NCBI RefSeq assembly: GCF_030734285.1
Contig: NZ_CP132294.1
Span: 3,906,001-3,970,000, forward strand
Source of the DNA: Natronococcus sp. AD-5
GTDB taxonomy: Archaea > Halobacteriota > Halobacteria > Halobacteriales > Natrialbaceae
Reading direction: 5' to 3'
DNA length: 64,000 nt
In this document: positions 3,470-58,673 of the stretch, piece by piece
Layout of the letters: each line of letters starts with the position of its first letter
Position numbering within the stretch: position 1 is the first letter of the stretch
Notes under the pieces: model-generated
Databases searched by the model: none
What the model saw: only the letters and a program-made list of their open reading frames with translations
What the model was told of the DNA's origin: nothing
Translations under genes and position numbers: made by a program

Positions 3470-5977
3470 GTGCCTAACGCCGGACTCACGCCAACCCAAC
3501 AGTCGCCGCTGTCCGCACTGGCCTCGCTCGAGGTTGCCAGCGCGCCCGTATCCGAACTCTGGGAGCAGTTGTTCGACCACCAGCCGGTCCGGGAAGCGTT
3601 TATCCGCGCCGTGCGCCGATTCGCCGACGGTCGCACTGTCCCGGAGTGTTACGAGGCACTCGAGGATCGCGACGTTCCCTACTGGCTGCGCTCTCGAATT
3701 ATTGATGTCGCCCGCGGCAACCGGCGCGAAGCGTGGCGCTTGGCCGCCGATCTCGTGCCGAATCTTGGGCAGGGTCATTCGAGTCTCGAGGATCTGTTCG
3801 CGACTGCTGACTTTTTCGCCGTTCACGTGCCTAACGAGCAGCCACCGACGCTCGCGATCACCATCGACCGTGCATTCGAGCAGGCCCCGCGGCGCAAACG
3901 GGAGACCGTCTGCCGACTGCTTGCCATCCTCGCGACTGGGTTCGACGTTCGGATTGTCGCGAGCGGTCGGACCCACCACTGGCTTGCTCGAGAGCACCGT
4001 GAGGACCTCCCTGTTAGCGCAGAGCGCAACACACCCCGGGTCGATGGATCACCTGCCGACGTCGCCGACCAAGCAATCGGGGAGCTCGACCCGGACGGCC
4101 GTGAAGTGGGCGAGGTCCTTCGCCCGCTGGTCGATGAACCGACCGAGACACGCTCGTACCACTCGCTGTATGCGGCCGCAACAGCCCACAAGTCGCGGAT
4201 TCGCCAGTGTATCAGTCGACTCACGGAGCTCGGTCTCGTCGCGACGTTCGGCTCGCGATCGGATCGAAACGTCGAACTCCTCGAGGCCGGTCGGGAGTAT
4301 CTATCCCGAATCAGTCGACAGATGACCCTCGAGTCGAGCGTTAGCCAACCCCCAAAATCCCACACACAGACACGTGGAACACGCGACACGGGAGTGGGTG
4401 GGGACGACGCCGGGCTGTACCGGACCACCGTGCAGAACCGGGCCGACCACGCAGCTGTGACAGCGTGCGCCGCTGACAGCGACGTGTGCTTGGTACAAGA
4501 ACCGCGAAGCCGCGACGAAACGCCCTCACACCGCCGGACGAAGCACGTATACTACAATGAAGACCGCGAGCAGGTGACGGTAAGCGTACACGCCGGCGGT
4601 GGATTACCCTATCTGGTGAGTATTGCGACTGCGTTAAGCCAACCGTGGTTTTTGGAGACCGCACTCCCGAATGATCGGCTCGAAGCGCTCGATGAGTCGC
4701 CGGCGATCCTTCGCGGCGCTCGAAACATCGGTGGACTCTCCGAGACTACGCTCAACGACCCCGAGAAGCTCCGCAAGACCCTCGCTGACTGGGGCGAGAA
4801 TCTCGAGGAGCTGACAACCGAACTCTCTCGAGCTACCGGCGAAGACAAGTCCACACTCGGCGCCGAGATCATGCGCTCGAGTCATGGTCTCGCGGGCTCT
4901 ATCATACATCTGCTCGACGCCACCGGGATCGACGTCGTCCGTGAGGTCCGAATTCCCAGTGGTCGCGAGAGTGCCGACCTCGAGGGGCTCGTCGAGTCGA
5001 TCACTCGGTCGGCACTCATTCAATCGAAGTACGGTGTGTTTGCTCCCTACCGTCACATCCTCGAAACCGACGCCGGCACGCCGTCGATCTCGCCGGAAGT
5101 TGACGCGGCAGACCCACATGGCGAACTCATCGGATCGTTCGTTCTCCGGGGCGCAGACATCCACCGAATTCGGCACCCGCTTGAGATGCGACTCTCGTCG
5201 CCAGGTGACATCCTCGAAGACGCGCCGGAGATCGCCATCCCGATCACTATCACCGACGTCGGACGACCGGAAATCACGACGGCGACGGCGCGAATACTCG
5301 AGTCAAAGAACCTTCGACCGACTCGTGAAGCTGTCTCCGTCCTCCACGCGCTCACCGGAAGCCCGTTCGACATCGCTCACGCCTTGAACCAACTCGGGAG
5401 CGAGGGCACTCCCCGAGAGATCCGGGCCGATGAACTCCGATATGCCCTTTCAGCGCTCGAGGCCGACCAGATTACCCCGGAGCTTCCGCCAACCGTCGGG
5501 AAAGTTGTATCTACGCTCCTTCGGACCGACGACCGACTGTCCCAACGCGGGCTCGCGGATCGGGCTGGCGTCTCGACACAGTCACTACGCAACAACCGGG
5601 ACGTCCTCAAGGCGCTCGGTCTCGTCTCAGTCGACGGCAATGGGTGGCGCCTCCAGCTGTCGTTCCGCACAACTGGGGAGCGTCGCGCCGGAATCGTTCC
5701 CGACGCTGCCGGTGGCACGTTCGTTGACGCGGTCAGCGAACTACTCGAGACGATGCTCCCTCCGGAACGGTACGGCAATCCCAAGGATCAGGTCGGCGGA
5801 ACCCTGTTCTGGCCACCCAATCCCTGGATATTACTCGACCACCCCGATGTCGCGCCGTGGGTCAAACTGGCCGCACGGCTAACCGGCACCGAGCGACCGG
5901 ACCGAGAGACGACAATCGCTGTGGGGCCACCAATCTGCCAACAGTCGATCACCGCGCCAACAGAGACAACAGGATGA
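3470..5977 (+). CDS. Large double-HTH protein, intact copy of a repeated family
   Basis: An 835-residue protein of unknown function and the only full-length member of a family present in pieces elsewhere in this window. The GTG start is supported by a strong GGAGGTGA Shine-Dalgarno at 3456-3463, six bases upstream. Residues 1-190 are helical; a winged-HTH-like segment follows at about 200-280 (ending LTELGLVATFGSRSDRN). A central domain at about 340-600 contains the family signature IMRSSHGLAGSIIHL. A second winged HTH lies at about 655-745 (LSQRGLADRAGVSTQSLRNN), and the protein ends with the family motif LFWPPNP.LLDH. It sits downstream of three coupled small genes and upstream of a nucleotidyltransferase/HEPN-like pair. 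A replicon-maintenance or regulatory role on a mobile element is my guess; no catalytic motif is evident. Confidence 0.85.
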   Translation: MPNAGLTPTQQSPLSALASLEVASAPVSELWEQLFDHQPVREAFIRAVRRFADGRTVPECYEALEDRDVPYWLRSRIIDVARGNRREAWRLAADLVPNLGQGHSSLEDLFATADFFAVHVPNEQPPTLAITIDRAFEQAPRRKRETVCRLLAILATGFDVRIVASGRTHHWLAREHREDLPVSAERNTPRVDGSPADVADQAIGELDPDGREVGEVLRPLVDEPTETRSYHSLYAAATAHKSRIRQCISRLTELGLVATFGSRSDRNVELLEAGREYLSRISRQMTLESSVSQPPKSHTQTRGTRDTGVGGDDAGLYRTTVQNRADHAAVTACAADSDVCLVQEPRSRDETPSHRRTKHVYYNEDREQVTVSVHAGGGLPYLVSIATALSQPWFLETALPNDRLEALDESPAILRGARNIGGLSETTLNDPEKLRKTLADWGENLEELTTELSRATGEDKSTLGAEIMRSSHGLAGSIIHLLDATGIDVVREVRIPSGRESADLEGLVESITRSALIQSKYGVFAPYRHILETDAGTPSISPEVDAADPHGELIGSFVLRGADIHRIRHPLEMRLSSPGDILEDAPEIAIPITITDVGRPEITTATARILESKNLRPTREAVSVLHALTGSPFDIAHALNQLGSEGTPREIRADELRYALSALEADQITPELPPTVGKVVSTLLRTDDRLSQRGLADRAGVSTQSLRNNRDVLKALGLVSVDGNGWRLQLSFRTTGERRAGIVPDAAGGTFVDAVSELLETMLPPERYGNPKDQVGGTLFWPPNPWILLDHPDVAPWVKLAARLTGTERPDRETTIAVGPPICQQSITAPTETTG

Positions 5978-12750: not shown

Positions 12751-12811
12751 GGGAAATTCTCCTTGTGAGTTGGCTTATTGTTTCTCTCGAGTTCAACTGA
12801 GAGACCTCTCG

Positions 12812-12842
12812 TTCTTTAAGTGGTTCTGGTCACAAGGTAAAG
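12812..12842 (+). repeat. Isolated copy R7 of the TTTAAGT promoter-like repeat
   Basis: The strand reads TTCTTTAAGTGGTTCTGGTC followed by ACAAGGTAAAG. It matches, in reverse complement, the six repeats at 55983-57603, including conserved flanking bases on the far side. No gene starts immediately downstream on this strand; the rest of 12538-13270 holds no gene I can support apart from IR2 and a weak direct repeat (about 12929 and 13065). Confidence 0.65.
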
Positions 12843-13270
12843 ATATACCAGGGGGACGTTCTCCGTATTCTCCTACTCGGTAGCCTTGGCTACTCCTTCG
12901 GTGCTCTAAGCCAAGGTGGACAGTCCACCGGAACAGAGTTCCAATTAACAGACCCTACTGCTGTCGAGTTCAATGATACGCTGGCCGCTAGAACTGACAG
13001 TCCCCTCTGTTTCGTGTTGGCCGGCGCATACGGTGGCGTGTCGCTCGTGGATGGTCCAACTGAAACAAAACTCCAATTGACAATCCCTGGTTGCTGCTTG
13101 AGTGGTTCTTAGATGGCGCGTCGGTACTGACATCCCAGCAATGAATCAAGATGAGGTGAATTGACCTGTGTAGCACAGTTTCCGTGCGGGTCTCGAGTGG
13201 CTCTGTCGTCTTAGACTTCCAGGTAACGGACGCTTCGAGCGATTCCGTTTGCTCTACCGGGACGAGTGTA

Positions 13271-14257
13271 TCAGTTGATCTTCGAACCGTCGGTACCGAA
13301 CTCCTGCGTGCGGCCGAAGTCCCGCATCCGCGGATAGTCAGAGATCACGTGATCGACGCCGATCCGCCGGAGCCGTTCGCTCTCGTGCCACTGAGTGACG
13401 GTGTAGACGTACACCTCACGGCCGTCGCGGTGGGCGCGCTCGACGAGGTCACGATCGACCGACCCGACCGACGGTCCGACCGCCTCGGCGTCCAGTCGCC
13501 GTGCTGATTCGTATCCGCGTTCGTTGTCGTCGGCCCACAGGTACATGATCGGCTGGCCAGGATCGAACTCCTTGACCGCAGCCAAGGCGTCGTCATCGAA
13601 CGACGACCAGACGTAGTCGTGTTCGAACTCCTCGACGATGTCGAAGACGTGGCTGATGAACTGTCGGTAGCGAGCGGTCTCGCTCGTTTCAGTTACCGTT
13701 CCGGAGTCCGTAACCGCCGTCGCCCCCGGCGATTTGATATCGAGTTGGACGGGCATCCACTCGGGGATGGTTTCAAGAGCCTCCCGTAGCGTCGGGATCG
13801 TCTCACCGCTTTTCAGTACGTTCGCGTTCAGGACCGTCTCGTCGTCCTCGAGCCAAACGACGCCGGACTCGTCGGTGAGGTCGTCGAGTCGGTGGTCGTG
13901 GAAGACGACGACCGTCTCCTCGCGAGTCGGTAGCAGATCGATCTCTACGCGGTCGGGGAGCGTATAGGGCGACGCGCCGTCGCCGACGTGACAGGCACCC
14001 TCCATTGCTGCCAGTGTGTTCTCCGGGAAATAGCCCGCGAAACACCGGTGTGCAACGAGTGTCGGCTCCTCGCGGTCCGTTCCATCCGGGAACCGGCTCT
14101 CCGGAATCGTCGGTCGATCGTTCGGGTTACCGCTCTCGTGGCGAGCACTAACGCTACTGCCGAGCGCGGAAACTCCCAGTGAAGCCCCGGTCATCTTCGC
14201 GAATCGTCGTCGGTACATCTGGGCAACGTTCCGTGTCGGTCTTTTTTCATCTCCCAT
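13271..14257 (-). CDS. Glycerophosphodiester phosphodiesterase, Tat-exported
   Basis: A 328-residue GDPD-family TIM-barrel hydrolase that splits glycerophosphodiesters into glycerol 3-phosphate and an alcohol. Signature pieces are AHRCFAGYFPENTLAA (His-Arg ... Glu-Asn-Thr) at about residue 70, EIDLLPTREETVVVFHDH at about 110, and a C-terminal VYVYTVTQWHESERLRRIGV block. The N-terminus carries a twin-arginine signal (YRRRFAKMTGASLGVSALG), so it is secreted. The ATG at 14257 is chosen because it places the Tat motif about 15 residues in; the longer frame from 14314 adds an unrelated hydrophobic segment. It is a single gene. Confidence 0.9.
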   Translation of the reverse strand: MGDEKRPTRNVAQMYRRRFAKMTGASLGVSALGSSVSARHESGNPNDRPTIPESRFPDGTDREEPTLVAHRCFAGYFPENTLAAMEGACHVGDGASPYTLPDRVEIDLLPTREETVVVFHDHRLDDLTDESGVVWLEDDETVLNANVLKSGETIPTLREALETIPEWMPVQLDIKSPGATAVTDSGTVTETSETARYRQFISHVFDIVEEFEHDYVWSSFDDDALAAVKEFDPGQPIMYLWADDNERGYESARRLDAEAVGPSVGSVDRDLVERAHRDGREVYVYTVTQWHESERLRRIGVDHVISDYPRMRDFGRTQEFGTDGSKIN

Positions 14258-14543
14258 GTGCGAGACTCTACAGCCGTCAAAAAAGAGGCTCTGACAAATC
14301 CATCCAAACACCAATTCGGCCGTACGAAGTACGAAGTCCGCGAACCGGGTGCTCGAATAACAGGTCGCTGACCACCCTGGTCGGTCGGGTACCCCCGTCT
14401 CCCGGCCAGTCTCTGGTATCGTTCAGTGAAATAGCAGTACCGGTCCGGCGAGGAGACCGAAACCGATCGTCTCCCGAGCACTCTCAAAGACGCGGACGAC
14501 TGCTAATCGCAGCCTGGCGCCGCGCTCGAGCGCGACGGCCTCA

Positions 14544-47396: not shown

Positions 47397-47468
47397 AGCC
47401 TAGGCCGGGATTTGAACCCGGGCTCTCGTCCTTACCAAGGACGCGCTTTACCGCTAAGCTACCCAGGC
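47397..47468 (-). tRNA. tRNA-Thr (anticodon GGT)
   Basis: The minus strand folds into a cloverleaf: acceptor stem GCCTGGG/CCTAGGC (one G-U), D-arm, anticodon stem CGTCC/GGACG with loop TTGGTAA (anticodon GGT), T-arm CCGGG/CCCGG with GTTCAAAT. The CCA end is not encoded. Its 3' end points left, into the accessory region, as expected for a tRNA used as an integration site. Confidence 0.95.
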
Positions 47469-55072: not shown

Positions 55073-55843
55073 TCACTCGTCGGCGCCGTCGATGTCGGAT
55101 TCGCCGCCCGCGTCGGCCGACTCCTCGTCGGTGCGCGCCTCGAGGCTCGGCAGGTTCGGATCCCGGTACGGATTCCGGCCGTAAGCCGGGAGTTCGTCCT
55201 CGAGTTGCGATTTCAGGACTCGTCGGAGGCGGTTCAGGCTCGTCGTGTCGAGGCCGTGCTGGGCCGCGAGCCGCTTGAACGTCTCCTCGTCGGTGATGTC
55301 GTGGGCGCGGTACTGGCCGAACAGCTCGTCCATCCGATCGGGTGACAGCGCCGAGACGTCAACGTCGTCGAGCCCGAAGTACGCTCGGCGGTCGACGTCG
55401 ACCACGTGGCGGATGACGACCAGCGCGACCTTCGGAATCGCGCGCTGGCTGCCGAACTCGGTGAGGTCGATCTCGTCCATCACGCCGAGCGCGAGGTCCC
55501 GCTGCCACGGCGTCAGGTCGAGGGCGTTACACAGCGCCTGGGTCGTCCGCAGGCGATCGAGCCGGTGGGCGCGCTCGCTGTATCCCGGCGTCGCGCCGTG
55601 CTGTTCGTCGTGGAGTCGTCGGATGCTCTCCGAGAGCTCCTCCTCGGGCGACTCCGCGCGGCCGATGACGGTCGCGCTCGGCGTGACGACGCCCCACTGG
55701 CGGACGGTCGAATCGCGCTGCACGTCCGCCCGGGAGAGCGACCCGGAGCCGGGCCGCGTCTCGAGGCGACGGTCGCCGTCCCGGCCGTCGGGAACGGGGT
55801 CCCGCTGGAGGGCTGGCCCGGAGTCAACACCGTCGTCGTACAT
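55073..55843 (-). CDS. RNA polymerase subunit epsilon-type haloarchaeal protein
   Basis: A 256-residue protein: RDSTVRQWGVVTPSATVIGR, ALCNALDLTPWQRDLALGVM, EFGSQRAIPKVALVVIRHVV and YGRNPYRDPNLPSLEA, the conserved blocks of proteins annotated in Halobacteria as DNA-directed RNA polymerase subunit epsilon. It has cyclin/TFB-like helical sequence; its role in transcription is by annotation only, as far as I know. Promoter-like repeats R1 and R2 lie upstream (55983 and 56124). Confidence 0.75.
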   Translation of the reverse strand: MYDDGVDSGPALQRDPVPDGRDGDRRLETRPGSGSLSRADVQRDSTVRQWGVVTPSATVIGRAESPEEELSESIRRLHDEQHGATPGYSERAHRLDRLRTTQALCNALDLTPWQRDLALGVMDEIDLTEFGSQRAIPKVALVVIRHVVDVDRRAYFGLDDVDVSALSPDRMDELFGQYRAHDITDEETFKRLAAQHGLDTTSLNRLRRVLKSQLEDELPAYGRNPYRDPNLPSLEARTDEESADAGGESDIDGADE

Positions 55844-55982
55844 CGTGTGTCGCTCAGACCGGGAGACGGAAAAAGACTTGCTCGTTTCACCGGTCTCGAG
55901 ACTGGTAAGGCGTCTAACACGTCTCTCGGGAATGCAGTCGCTTCGGCGTCGTTGATCCGCGAAAAGCCCTTCGTAGCTTCAC

Positions 55983-56151
55983 CTTGTGACCAGAACCACT
56001 TAAAGAACGTCCGCAGTTCCGACTGCAGCAGCCGCCCGCAGCAGCCGCCCGCTGGACTCGAGCGGTCGCTCCGCTGGAGACGATCGATATCCGTAGAACG
56101 GACGACTTCCCGCCATAGCTCTACCTTGTGACCAGAGACACTTAAAGCGAG
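55983..56151 (-). repeat. Promoter-like repeats R1 and R2
   Basis: R1 (from 55983) and R2 (from 56124) read CTTGTGACCAGAA(C)CACTTAAAG and its variant, on the plus strand. In minus orientation each has a TTTAAGT box followed by GG(T)TCTGGTCACAAGGT. They lie in the 55844-56177 gap upstream of the epsilon-type gene. A 13-bp tandem duplication (GCAGCAGCCGCCC, 56025-56050) is also present. Confidence 0.7.
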
Positions 56152-56177
56152 GACGGAGAGTGCAGTTGCGACCTGCG

Positions 56178-57098
56178 TCATCGTACCGCCGCGATCATCT
56201 CGTCGATGAACTCGTCCAACCGCTCCCGGTCGGGCCCGCCTCGAGCGTGAATCTCGGGATCGATCCGCTTCGGCGGGTGTGCGAACGCGCGGCCGACGGC
56301 GTCCCCGATTCGGACGTTTCCGTCGCCCGCTCGCTTCCGCTCGAGGAGTTCTCGAGCGCGGTCGATCCGATCCGCGTCGAACACCGACGGGGCCTGTTCG
56401 TCGAGGAACGCCTCGAACTCGAGCGCCGGCAGGTCGTGATCGCCGAATTCGCCGGTTTCTTTCAGATAGCGCGCGGCCATCGCGGCGCGGACGACGGTCA
56501 GGTTTCGCTTGACCGTCGGTTTCGTCTGCGTCTCGGCGAACCGCTCGTCGTCCGCGGGAACGGTCGTCCGTCCCTCGTCGCCCTCGACGACGTACTCGTC
56601 GTCGCGCACCCCGAGGATCGGGAAAATCGCGTCGTCGGTTCGAACCAGGTGCTCCGAGAGGTACTTGCGGTAGTTGCTCGCGGCGATCCCCCGCCAGGCG
56701 TGGTAGAGGTCGATCGGATTGTACGTTCGCTCGACGTACGCGGCCAGCTCGTCGGGGTCGTAGGTAACGCGGTACCGGATCGGACTCCGGAGGAGATCGA
56801 TCGCGCCGTCGTTCGAGTCGGCGAGCAAGCCCGCGAACTTGCGGACGTCCCAGCCCTGGTACTCGAACGCGTCGCGCTCCGCGAGGATGACGTCGTCGAC
56901 GCCCTCGAGGTGGGCGTACCGTCGCAGATCCGTCGGCGCGTAGACGAAGCCGACGTCGTAGTCGCTGTCGGGGCTCGCCGCGCCCCAGGCGTGACTCCCG
57001 CGGGCGGCCGCCAGCACGATCGACACCTCGTGAGTGTGTTCGATCGCTTCCAGCTGATCGTCGACCGTCTCGTGTACGTGCGCGGGGACCGATCCCAT
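56178..57098 (-). CDS. Nucleotidyltransferase-superfamily protein (COG3541-like)
   Basis: A 306-residue protein with the polymerase-beta-type motif GSHAWGAASPDSDYDVGFVY (residues 34-53), in which GS and D-x-D are the catalytic elements. The later part (NPIDLYHAWRGIAASNYRKY) fits the YcgL/COG3541 family, of unknown substrate. Four promoter-like repeats lie upstream of its start. It lies 334 bp from the epsilon-type gene on the same strand. Confidence 0.85.
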   Translation of the reverse strand: MGSVPAHVHETVDDQLEAIEHTHEVSIVLAAARGSHAWGAASPDSDYDVGFVYAPTDLRRYAHLEGVDDVILAERDAFEYQGWDVRKFAGLLADSNDGAIDLLRSPIRYRVTYDPDELAAYVERTYNPIDLYHAWRGIAASNYRKYLSEHLVRTDDAIFPILGVRDDEYVVEGDEGRTTVPADDERFAETQTKPTVKRNLTVVRAAMAARYLKETGEFGDHDLPALEFEAFLDEQAPSVFDADRIDRARELLERKRAGDGNVRIGDAVGRAFAHPPKRIDPEIHARGGPDRERLDEFIDEMIAAVR

Positions 57099-57179
57099 GG
57101 CTACCGCTGTCCACTACGTTTTGGAAGCAGACAAGTGCTCCGAGAGTTCGCCGTCGTCCGAAGACGTACCATACGCACC

Positions 57180-57603
57180 GCTGAAGTCGGATCGAGATCG
57201 ATAGAACGGACGACCTCCCGTCGTAGCTTCATCTTGTGACCAAAACCACTTAAAGAGGAGACGGCGTGCTCGAGTAGCAGCGGCTTCTCGAGCGAAGGAG
57301 TTACGGTCGCGCGGCGCTCGGCAAGTACGAACCCGTGAAAACGACGACTTCCCGTCGTATCACCACTTTGTGACCAGAAATACTTAAAGAACGACCGGTT
57401 TCGCACCGAGTGCTGACGCTATCGAGCGTTACGAACGAGAGAACCACGACGCCCTTCCATAGCTACTCCTTGTAACTAGAAGCACTTAAAGAACGGATCG
57501 GATTCGCGACTCGAGGAGAGCGAGCACTGAGGAGGATTACAAGCGAGAGAACGACGGCGTCCCGTCATAGCTCCACCTTGTCACCAGAAGCACTTAAAGC
57601 ACC
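57180..57603 (-). repeat. Tandem promoter-like repeats R3 to R6
   Basis: Four copies start at 57233, 57366, 57469 and 57577, about 103-133 bp apart. Each has a conserved upstream part (ACGAC.TCCCGTCATAGCT) joined to CTTGTGACCAGAA and ACTTAAAGAACG. Read on the minus strand each presents a TTTAAGT box directed towards the nucleotidyltransferase gene. Apparent short open frames through them are not conserved. The 57099-57725 gap contains nothing else I can name. Confidence 0.75.
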
Positions 57604-57734
57604 AGCGCAACGGATTGCCACCCTCCGCCCCGCCGCCCCGCTACGAGCGTCCCTCTAGGGTTCGAAAAACCGTAACGGAGATCCGAAGTGCTGGTTTCGA
57701 AAGGTCTAATCGCCCGGTGCCCTGAATGCAGGCA

Positions 57735-58673
57735 ATGAGTAAGCAGCTTCCGGACGTGCAGGCGACGTCGCCTGACGTCACCGTCGGATTGAGTCAGGTT
57801 GGCGTGACCGGCGTCGAAAAACTCGTCAAGATCGCCCGCGAAGACAAGCGACCGATCGTCCTCACGGCCGAGTTCGAGGTCTTCGTCGACCTCCCCGCGT
57901 GGCGCAAGGGCGCGGACATGAGCCGCAACATGGAGGTCATCGACGAGATCTTAGAGGATGCGACTCGAGACGAGGCCTACCGCGTCGAAGACGTCTGCGG
58001 CGACGCGGCCGAACGGCTCCTCGAGAAACACGAGTACACCTCGCGCGCGGAGGTCTCGATGGAGGCGGAGTTCATGCGCCGCGAGCAGACGCCGGCCAGC
58101 GACCGAGAGACCCAGCACACCGTCGACATCATCGCGGCCGCGTCGGCGACCGAGGAGGGCACCCGCGAGGAGATCGGCGCCAAGGTCGTCGGGATGACGG
58201 TCTGTCCCTGCTCGCAGGGGATGTCCGCCGCGCGCGCGAAGCAGACGCTCGAGAACTTAGGCGTCGAGGAGGAGACGATCACGGCGTTCCTCGACGAAGT
58301 GCCCCAGCCGGGTCACTCCCAGCGCGGGCACGCGACGCTGACCGTCGAGTCCGACGGCGACCCGGACGTCGATCTCAACGACGTCATCGACATCGCCCGC
58401 GACTCGATGAGCGCCCGGATCTACAACCTCGCGAAGCGACCCGACGAGGATCACATGACATACGAGGCCCACGCGGACGCGAAGTTCGTCGAGGACTGCG
58501 TGCGCTCGATGGCCGAGGGCGTCCTCGACGAGTTCGACCACCTGCCGGACGACGCCGTGATCACGATGAAGCAGTCGAACGACGAGTCGATCCACCAGCA
58601 CAACGCCCACGCCGAACGCGTCGTCGAGATGGATCAGCTGCGCGCCGAAGTCAACGACTCCGGCAGCAACTGA
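57735..58673 (+). CDS. mptA: GTP cyclohydrolase IV (MptA/FolE2 type)
   Basis: A 312-residue protein starting [20 protein letters not shown]. It converts GTP to a dihydroneopterin cyclic phosphate, the first step of archaeal pterin synthesis. Family motifs include [45 protein letters not shown] and [12 protein letters not shown], the His/Cys-bearing active-site segments. The ATG at 57735 is chosen over 57726 because the extra MQA is unconserved. Monocistronic. Confidence 0.95.

Follow-up and report, generated by a model that had tools for sequence, protein, structure and literature searches.

A tandemly repeated promoter-like element accompanies the RNA polymerase epsilon gene in Halobacteriales

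In the haloarchaeon Natronococcus sp. AD-5, the genes for RNA polymerase subunit epsilon (rpoeps) and for an RlaP-type nucleotidyltransferase are preceded by six tandem units that, judged from their sequence, are likely to be copies of an extended class of archaeal promoter. The units lie in a window of 64,000 nucleotides (contig NZ_CP132294.1, positions 3,906,001 to 3,970,000), and each carries the same element: a TATA box, TTTAAGT, then a central box, YTCTSGYNRYAANG, and an initiator, AG[A/C]TAYGA. Computation establishes that the element exists, that its parts are spaced at fixed distances, where its copies lie, and that it co-occurs near-perfectly with rpoeps across the order. We propose that the element defines a promoter class, that RNA polymerase containing epsilon reads the central box, that rpoeps is autoregulated through the element, and that a small regulon is under the same control; we put the probability of this whole reading at about 0.6. 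The literature that we searched, outside of which lie subscription papers, yielded no earlier description of such an element.

Results

Co-occurrence of the element with rpoeps

R1, a sequence-only model of the element built from one genus, detects it in 111 of the 125 genomes of the family and in 160 of the 392 genomes of the order, with 1–17 copies per genome among those of the family. When rpoeps is counted as present at E 1.9e-60 or better (180/392 genomes), 159 genomes contain both the element and the gene, 1 contains the element only, 21 contain rpoeps only, and 211 contain neither, so that element and gene agree in 370. Not counted are fifteen genomes whose epsilon hits are all weaker (1e-11 to 7e-23); the element was found in none of these. 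We note that these weak-hit genomes, which include G144, G257, and G342, and the distant epsilon relatives at L258 and L259 represent a second branch of the family.

A variant of the element, TTTAAGTNNYTCTSGYNRYAANGG, was sought with up to 3 mismatches near rpoeps and in its exact form genome-wide. The former script, which covered 20 genomes and 10 named loci, returned 40 hits (reversed control, 0) and, with both strands counted, placed the variant close to rpoeps in 16 of the 20 rpoeps-positive genomes and in 14 of the 18 that are R1-negative (G014 and G201 are R1-positive). The exact form occurs in 56/392 genomes, and 55 of these contain rpoeps; the control gave 0 in every one of the 392. 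Because the variant has GG at its end, preceded by one free base, it does not capture the Natrialbaceae form (AAGGT), and 56 is not a count of the whole element. The variant fills 20 of the 21 R1-negative rpoeps genomes, and R1 and the variant together give 179 genomes with both, 1 with the element only, 1 with epsilon only, and 211 with neither, an agreement of 390/392 that extends to genera of mixed content (g11, 2 both and 3 neither; g42, 2 both and 5 neither). A previous reading of the window made from its letters (hereafter the sequence-only reading) had suggested a genome-wide search, in which random scatter was to be expected if its promoter interpretation was wrong; instead, the element tracks the epsilon gene. 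In the element-only genome, G262, the contig stops a short way beyond the element, and the epsilon gene that is missing there may have been disrupted or left out of the assembly. The end of this contig (contig 9, L320) breaks inside an open reading frame (ORF), assigned by eye to an insertion sequence-type transposase, that starts ~150 nt past the last element.

The match between element and rpoeps is not one of co-localization alone, because in three genomes of genus g69 (L250, L254, and L255) no copy lies near rpoeps and copies are present elsewhere in each of the three. The g69 variant, mostly ending in CGCAATGG, occurs in pairs ~1.4 kb apart (G221, C1:496833 and 498245; G344, C1:529558 and 530971), in G221 far from rpoeps. 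RlaP was tried as the key partner and rejected: it is found in 96/125 family genomes versus 111/125 for the element, with mismatches both ways. The element occurs without a listed RlaP in genera g9 and g24, and the reverse holds in most of g2 (by R1). This two-way discordance makes rlaP look like a target of the element and not its cause.

Position of the element around rpoeps

The rpoeps family collected from named genomes comprises 80 loci, and in 70 of these an element that matches the core at 17 or more of 23 positions lies upstream of rpoeps, on the same strand and within 750 nt. Reversed sequence reached at most 16 matches, and 1 of 400 shuffles reached 17. A position scan that examined 100 loci (the 80 and 20 further) gave 77 positive loci, at which a median of 189 nt separates the TATA box from the matched protein start; 39 of the 77 contain at least two sense copies within 750 nt upstream, a sense tandem arrangement being usual. 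Similarly, in four genomes with two to four epsilon genes each (G180, G194, G208, and G218; family f6, genus g34), the element precedes the epsilon paralogues in 10/10 fetched regions, matching 19–22 of 23 positions.

Copies on the opposite strand just 3′ of rpoeps were also seen in several lineages (L142, at 4030–4297; L143, at 4939–5221; L239, L243, L246, L247, L249, L251, L252, L216, and L217). Copies so placed would yield RNA antisense to rpoeps, and antisense control of epsilon is possible. If the element is epsilon-dependent, the sense copies would exert positive feedback and the 3′ antisense copies negative feedback.

Architecture and conservation

Conservation of the element is maximal at the TATA box and at the central box, which lies at about −17 to −4 relative to the presumed start. 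We aligned 58 copies from the window's genus, leaving out 8 rpoeps-proximal copies with divergent downstream sequence and 2 low scorers. The alignment is gap-free from before TTTAAG to ~GACGGG past the presumed start, its sole gapped column reflecting an insertion in three copies, and the position of the TATA-like box is invariant across the aligned copies. Upstream of the TATA box the genus has CGnTCGTTC. Counted from the C of CTTTAAG, the mean pairwise identity of orthologous copies in three sets (6, 4, and 9 copies) is 0.84–0.91 over the first 40 nt, 0.64–0.71 over 40–59, and 0.15–0.49 over 60–79; for six orthologous stand-alone copies it is 0.35–0.59 at distances from the TATA box greater than 60 nt, and only in the hisG set does identity recover strongly further downstream, toward coding sequence. 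Because identity is lost within ~60 nt of the TATA box, what is conserved appears to be a DNA tract from the TATA box to just past the presumed start, and not a longer transcript.

Could each unit instead consist of a promoter and a short noncoding RNA gene, the product perhaps being a decoy RNA bound by epsilon or RlaP? The spacing between the array units, mostly 100–140 nt, would suit such genes, as would the several stand-alone copies that end against convergent genes. Yet RNAalifold predicts 0 pairs in the 58 aligned copies, the folds of single copies disagree and give no consensus structure, Rfam returned no match for the element either in the window or across the 49 kb surrounding the four copies elsewhere in the genome, and identity is lost beyond 60 nt; an RNA gene was thus rejected as a candidate, and we regard this explanation as improbable. 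Still less credible is a mobile or passively duplicated repeat, resembling a miniature inverted-repeat transposable element or a repetitive extragenic palindromic sequence, that seeded promoters by chance. Multiple copies, tandem and dispersed and plasmid-borne, are what such a repeat would produce, but no terminal inverted repeats were listed at the ends of the window units, the copy number stays within 1–17 per genome, the window array has a single orientation, the same neighbor genes recur in different families, and the element is undetected genome-wide where rpoeps is absent, except in G262. The sequence-only reading had offered both a short RNA and a mobile repeat as alternatives to a promoter, and both are now disfavored: since no RNA fold, hit in Rfam, or terminal repeat was found and conservation is so short, the element is best read as a promoter. 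Two coding explanations were likewise rejected by eye, a coding repeat because the minus-strand frame FFKWFWSQG is open through some units and contains stops in others, and a micro-ORF starting at an ATG after the element because the indels between copies are not all multiples of three.

Units and genes in the window

A search of the window with the pattern CTTGTGACCAGAANCACTTAAAG, allowing up to 3 mismatches, gave seven matches, at 55983, 56125, 57233, 57367, 57469, and 57577 on the plus strand and at 12814 on the minus strand; 100 dinucleotide shuffles of the window gave 0. The common register of the units is 71–75 nt, and the minus-strand reading of each is CTTTAAGTGNTTCTGGTCACAAGGTGGAGCTATGACGGGA or near it. 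The six array units share one orientation, pointing on the minus strand to rpoeps (55073–55843) and the RlaP-type gene (56178–57098). Unit 1 (55961–56013) is nearest rpoeps and, by analogy with the HF2 repeats discussed below, has a predicted transcription start at ~55977 and a leader of 134 nt to the ATG at 55843; unit 2 (56103–56155) is the second tandem element upstream of this gene. Unit 3 (57211–57263) is nearest rlaP, with a predicted start at ~57227 and a leader of 129 nt to the ATG at 57098, and is followed further upstream of rlaP by unit 4 (57345–57397), unit 5 (57447–57499), which has the lowest score among the six, and the distal unit 6 (57555–57607). The dispersed copy matched at 12814 stands alone on the plus strand (12806–12858), and the next long ORF (13271–14314, minus) converges on it.

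These results bear out the sequence-only reading in its account of six units and one inverted copy, with positions within 1–2 bases, and of a TTTAAGT box resembling a TATA box, which is real; its view of the repeats as promoter-like is supported by the sequence comparisons, as are its names for the downstream genes, an RNA polymerase epsilon subunit (256 aa; family A2/A3) and a nucleotidyltransferase (306 aa), which belongs to the RlaP family (PF10127, E 5.7e-35). The Pfam search covered five window proteins; the names of genes beside copies outside the window were assigned by eye. The gene mptA (57726–58673) diverges from the array and is downstream of no unit. The window also contains tRNA genes at 47397, 50763, and 62071 (Thr, Gly, and Ile, respectively).

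Distribution and downstream genes

The whole Natronococcus genome contains 11 pattern matches (reversed-pattern control, 0), of which four lie outside the window (C1:3367838, C1:3896671, C2:554935, and C2:603611), and all nine genomes searched in the genus, this one included, have matches (control, 0). The element is found across Halobacteriales. Other families were sampled by 16 stretches fetched from ten genomes of five families, with genes called by script, and in 7 of the 16 the element is directly upstream of rpoeps (L142–L147 and L150); it also precedes the seryl-tRNA synthetase gene serS (L145 and L146), a menA homologue (L156), and a DsbA-like gene (L144), all named by eye. In a set of 40 stretches the script listed 86 units. 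Genes that recur downstream of these, again named by eye, include hisG (in the genus of the window), a PAP2-like gene, and an acetyltransferase gene that precedes thiamine genes. Stand-alone copies excepted, the element thus lies upstream of genes on the same strand: rpoeps (70/80) and also hisG, the acetyltransferase gene, serS, and menA. Further copies stand alone, with convergent genes facing them. On plasmids, copies were found in 8 records, of which five were examined; all are intergenic, under no annotated feature. The unit has no match in 50,697 phage records, nor does the pattern have any in viral contigs.

The epsilon protein

The epsilon-containing RNA polymerase was reportedly found by Madon and Zillig in 1983 to transcribe native DNA. 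According to the accessible part of PMC8305020, Hbt. salinarum and a subset of haloarchaea possess epsilon; native templates are transcribed efficiently by the RNA polymerase that contains it and not by polymerase without it; Hbt. salinarum OE_1279R is epsilon and co-purifies with RNA polymerase; and the relevance of the subunit is enigmatic. The name of the gene at 55073–55843 follows the sequence-only reading and the accessible part of PMC8305020; homology to OE_1279R is probable, given that the Halobacterium loci L202, L203, and L207 belong to the protein family as well. Pfam and NCBIfam returned no match for the window protein. Its predicted structure is helical, and residues ~87–218 align with TFIIB, Brf2, TFB, and cyclins at Z 10–11.5 (Pyrococcus TFB, 1d3u_B, at 10.0 and 10.3), values below the tool's caution level of ~13 that may reflect a common arrangement among helical folds. 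Models built from 9 and 43 sequences have similar helix patterns, with a mean predicted local distance difference test score of 68–69 and no gain from the deeper alignment. The epsilon core may fold, without sequence similarity, like one TFIIB/cyclin repeat.

Discussion

How might epsilon act on the element? We propose that RNA polymerase containing epsilon would recognize the central box much as a sigma holoenzyme recognizes a sigma-specific promoter, that rpoeps would control its own expression through serial copies of the element, and that rlaP, hisG, and other genes would form a small epsilon regulon. The nearest proven precedent is viral. According to the accessible part of PMC8707807, the HF2 class I repeats, 56–58 bp long with a CTTTAAGT TATA box, have been proven to act as promoters, with transcription starting 26 nt on, and are active in Hfx. 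volcanii without viral factors. Like the epsilon element, they combine repeated units with the CTTTAAGT box; unlike them, the epsilon element has no match in phage records or viral contigs. The HF2 gamma motif CGTCTNNTAGAG is absent from the window units, in which the CTTTAAGT box is present, and the genus g7 variant of the element (L253) has only TTAGAGTGAGGAG. HF2 IR4 shares both TTTAAGTCATT and TTAGAGTGAGGAG, that is, the TATA box and the start region, with the g7 variant, but its spacing is 2 nt shorter and it is without the central box. From this comparison we place a putative epsilon-specific function in the central box, and the shared parts, TATA box and initiator, would serve a general one. 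If so, the central box should be dispensable for TBP and TFB and needed for epsilon.

The available text of PMC4983044 gives the haloarchaeal core promoter as a TATA box (TTWT), a transcription factor B recognition element (CGAAA), and a −10 WW. The epsilon element resembles it in its TATA box and presumed spacing to the start, but has a long conserved tract between the two, and in the window's genus CGnTCGTTC replaces CGAAA. The likeness to rRNA promoters suggested by the sequence-only reading finds no echo in the neighboring genes: neither the window nor the 49 kb surrounding the four copies elsewhere in the genome contains an rRNA gene.

A bacterial counterpart is offered by alternative-sigma promoters with their autoregulated sigma genes. 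The epsilon element is comparable in that a promoter class tracks a polymerase subunit and precedes the gene for that subunit, but here an archaeal TATA box is kept, epsilon is no sigma factor, and it is by inference that we assign recognition of the element to epsilon. Similarly, multiple TFBs have been proposed as alternative basal factors that select archaeal promoter classes (PMC2121645, accessible part), and the epsilon core, which may consist of a single TFIIB-like repeat, would then parallel a TFB. We tentatively extend the proposal, at somewhat less than even odds, to an epsilon that is a promoter-specificity subunit built on such a repeat, with its own promoter class and regulon and with self-control exerted, depending on the lineage, by tandem sense copies or by convergent antisense ones, acting as a sigma-like switch.

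A number of observations weigh against epsilon as the reader of the element. Ten of the 80 rpoeps loci are without an upstream same-strand copy: at L201 and L204, <330 nt of upstream sequence is present; the copies at L216 and L217 are 3′ of rpoeps on the opposite strand and that at L223 is 3′ on the same strand; the copies at L192 lie 1.6–2.7 kb upstream; and L195, L198, L200, and L225 have no copy. The element was not found in G309, which has an epsilon hit. The combined count is partly circular, since the variant was designed on copies close to rpoeps in part of the genomes that it was then counted in, and the R1 table is cleaner; the 392 genomes are also related to one another, and no p-value is claimed. 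Many copies stand alone, which a promoter model leaves unexplained; any role for these, and the sign of regulation, we infer. The fold comparison is equivocal as well. A plain TFB identity for epsilon finds no support in sequence: the TFIIB repeat (PF00382) is not among the matches in 43 scanned epsilon members, and hhalign against the TFBs of the genome gives a probability of 0.2. In addition, the model contains no second repeat, Foldseek E values for epsilon are at least 0.16, and cyclins score as well as TFIIB.

Finally, another factor, for example one TFB paralogue, could read the element. In this main alternative, which we consider unlikely, the element is a promoter-operator bound by a different DNA-binding factor (a TFB paralogue, a repressor, or an activator), and rpoeps is a regulated gene and not the reader. 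The genome has 20 TFIIB-repeat matches above the Pfam cut-off and hence many TFB-type ORFs, regulons with many targets are usual, and conservation around a start site also suits an operator. Against this stand the carriage of the element by all paralogues examined and the almost perfect phyletic match of rpoeps, one of two genes, with rlaP, whose co-occurrence with the element was compared.

We favor recognition by the epsilon-containing polymerase. An element whose presence and absence track those of the epsilon gene makes the enigmatic role of epsilon directly testable. If our proposal is correct, some Archaea would select promoters by means of an accessory polymerase subunit, and not by TFB and TBP variants alone.
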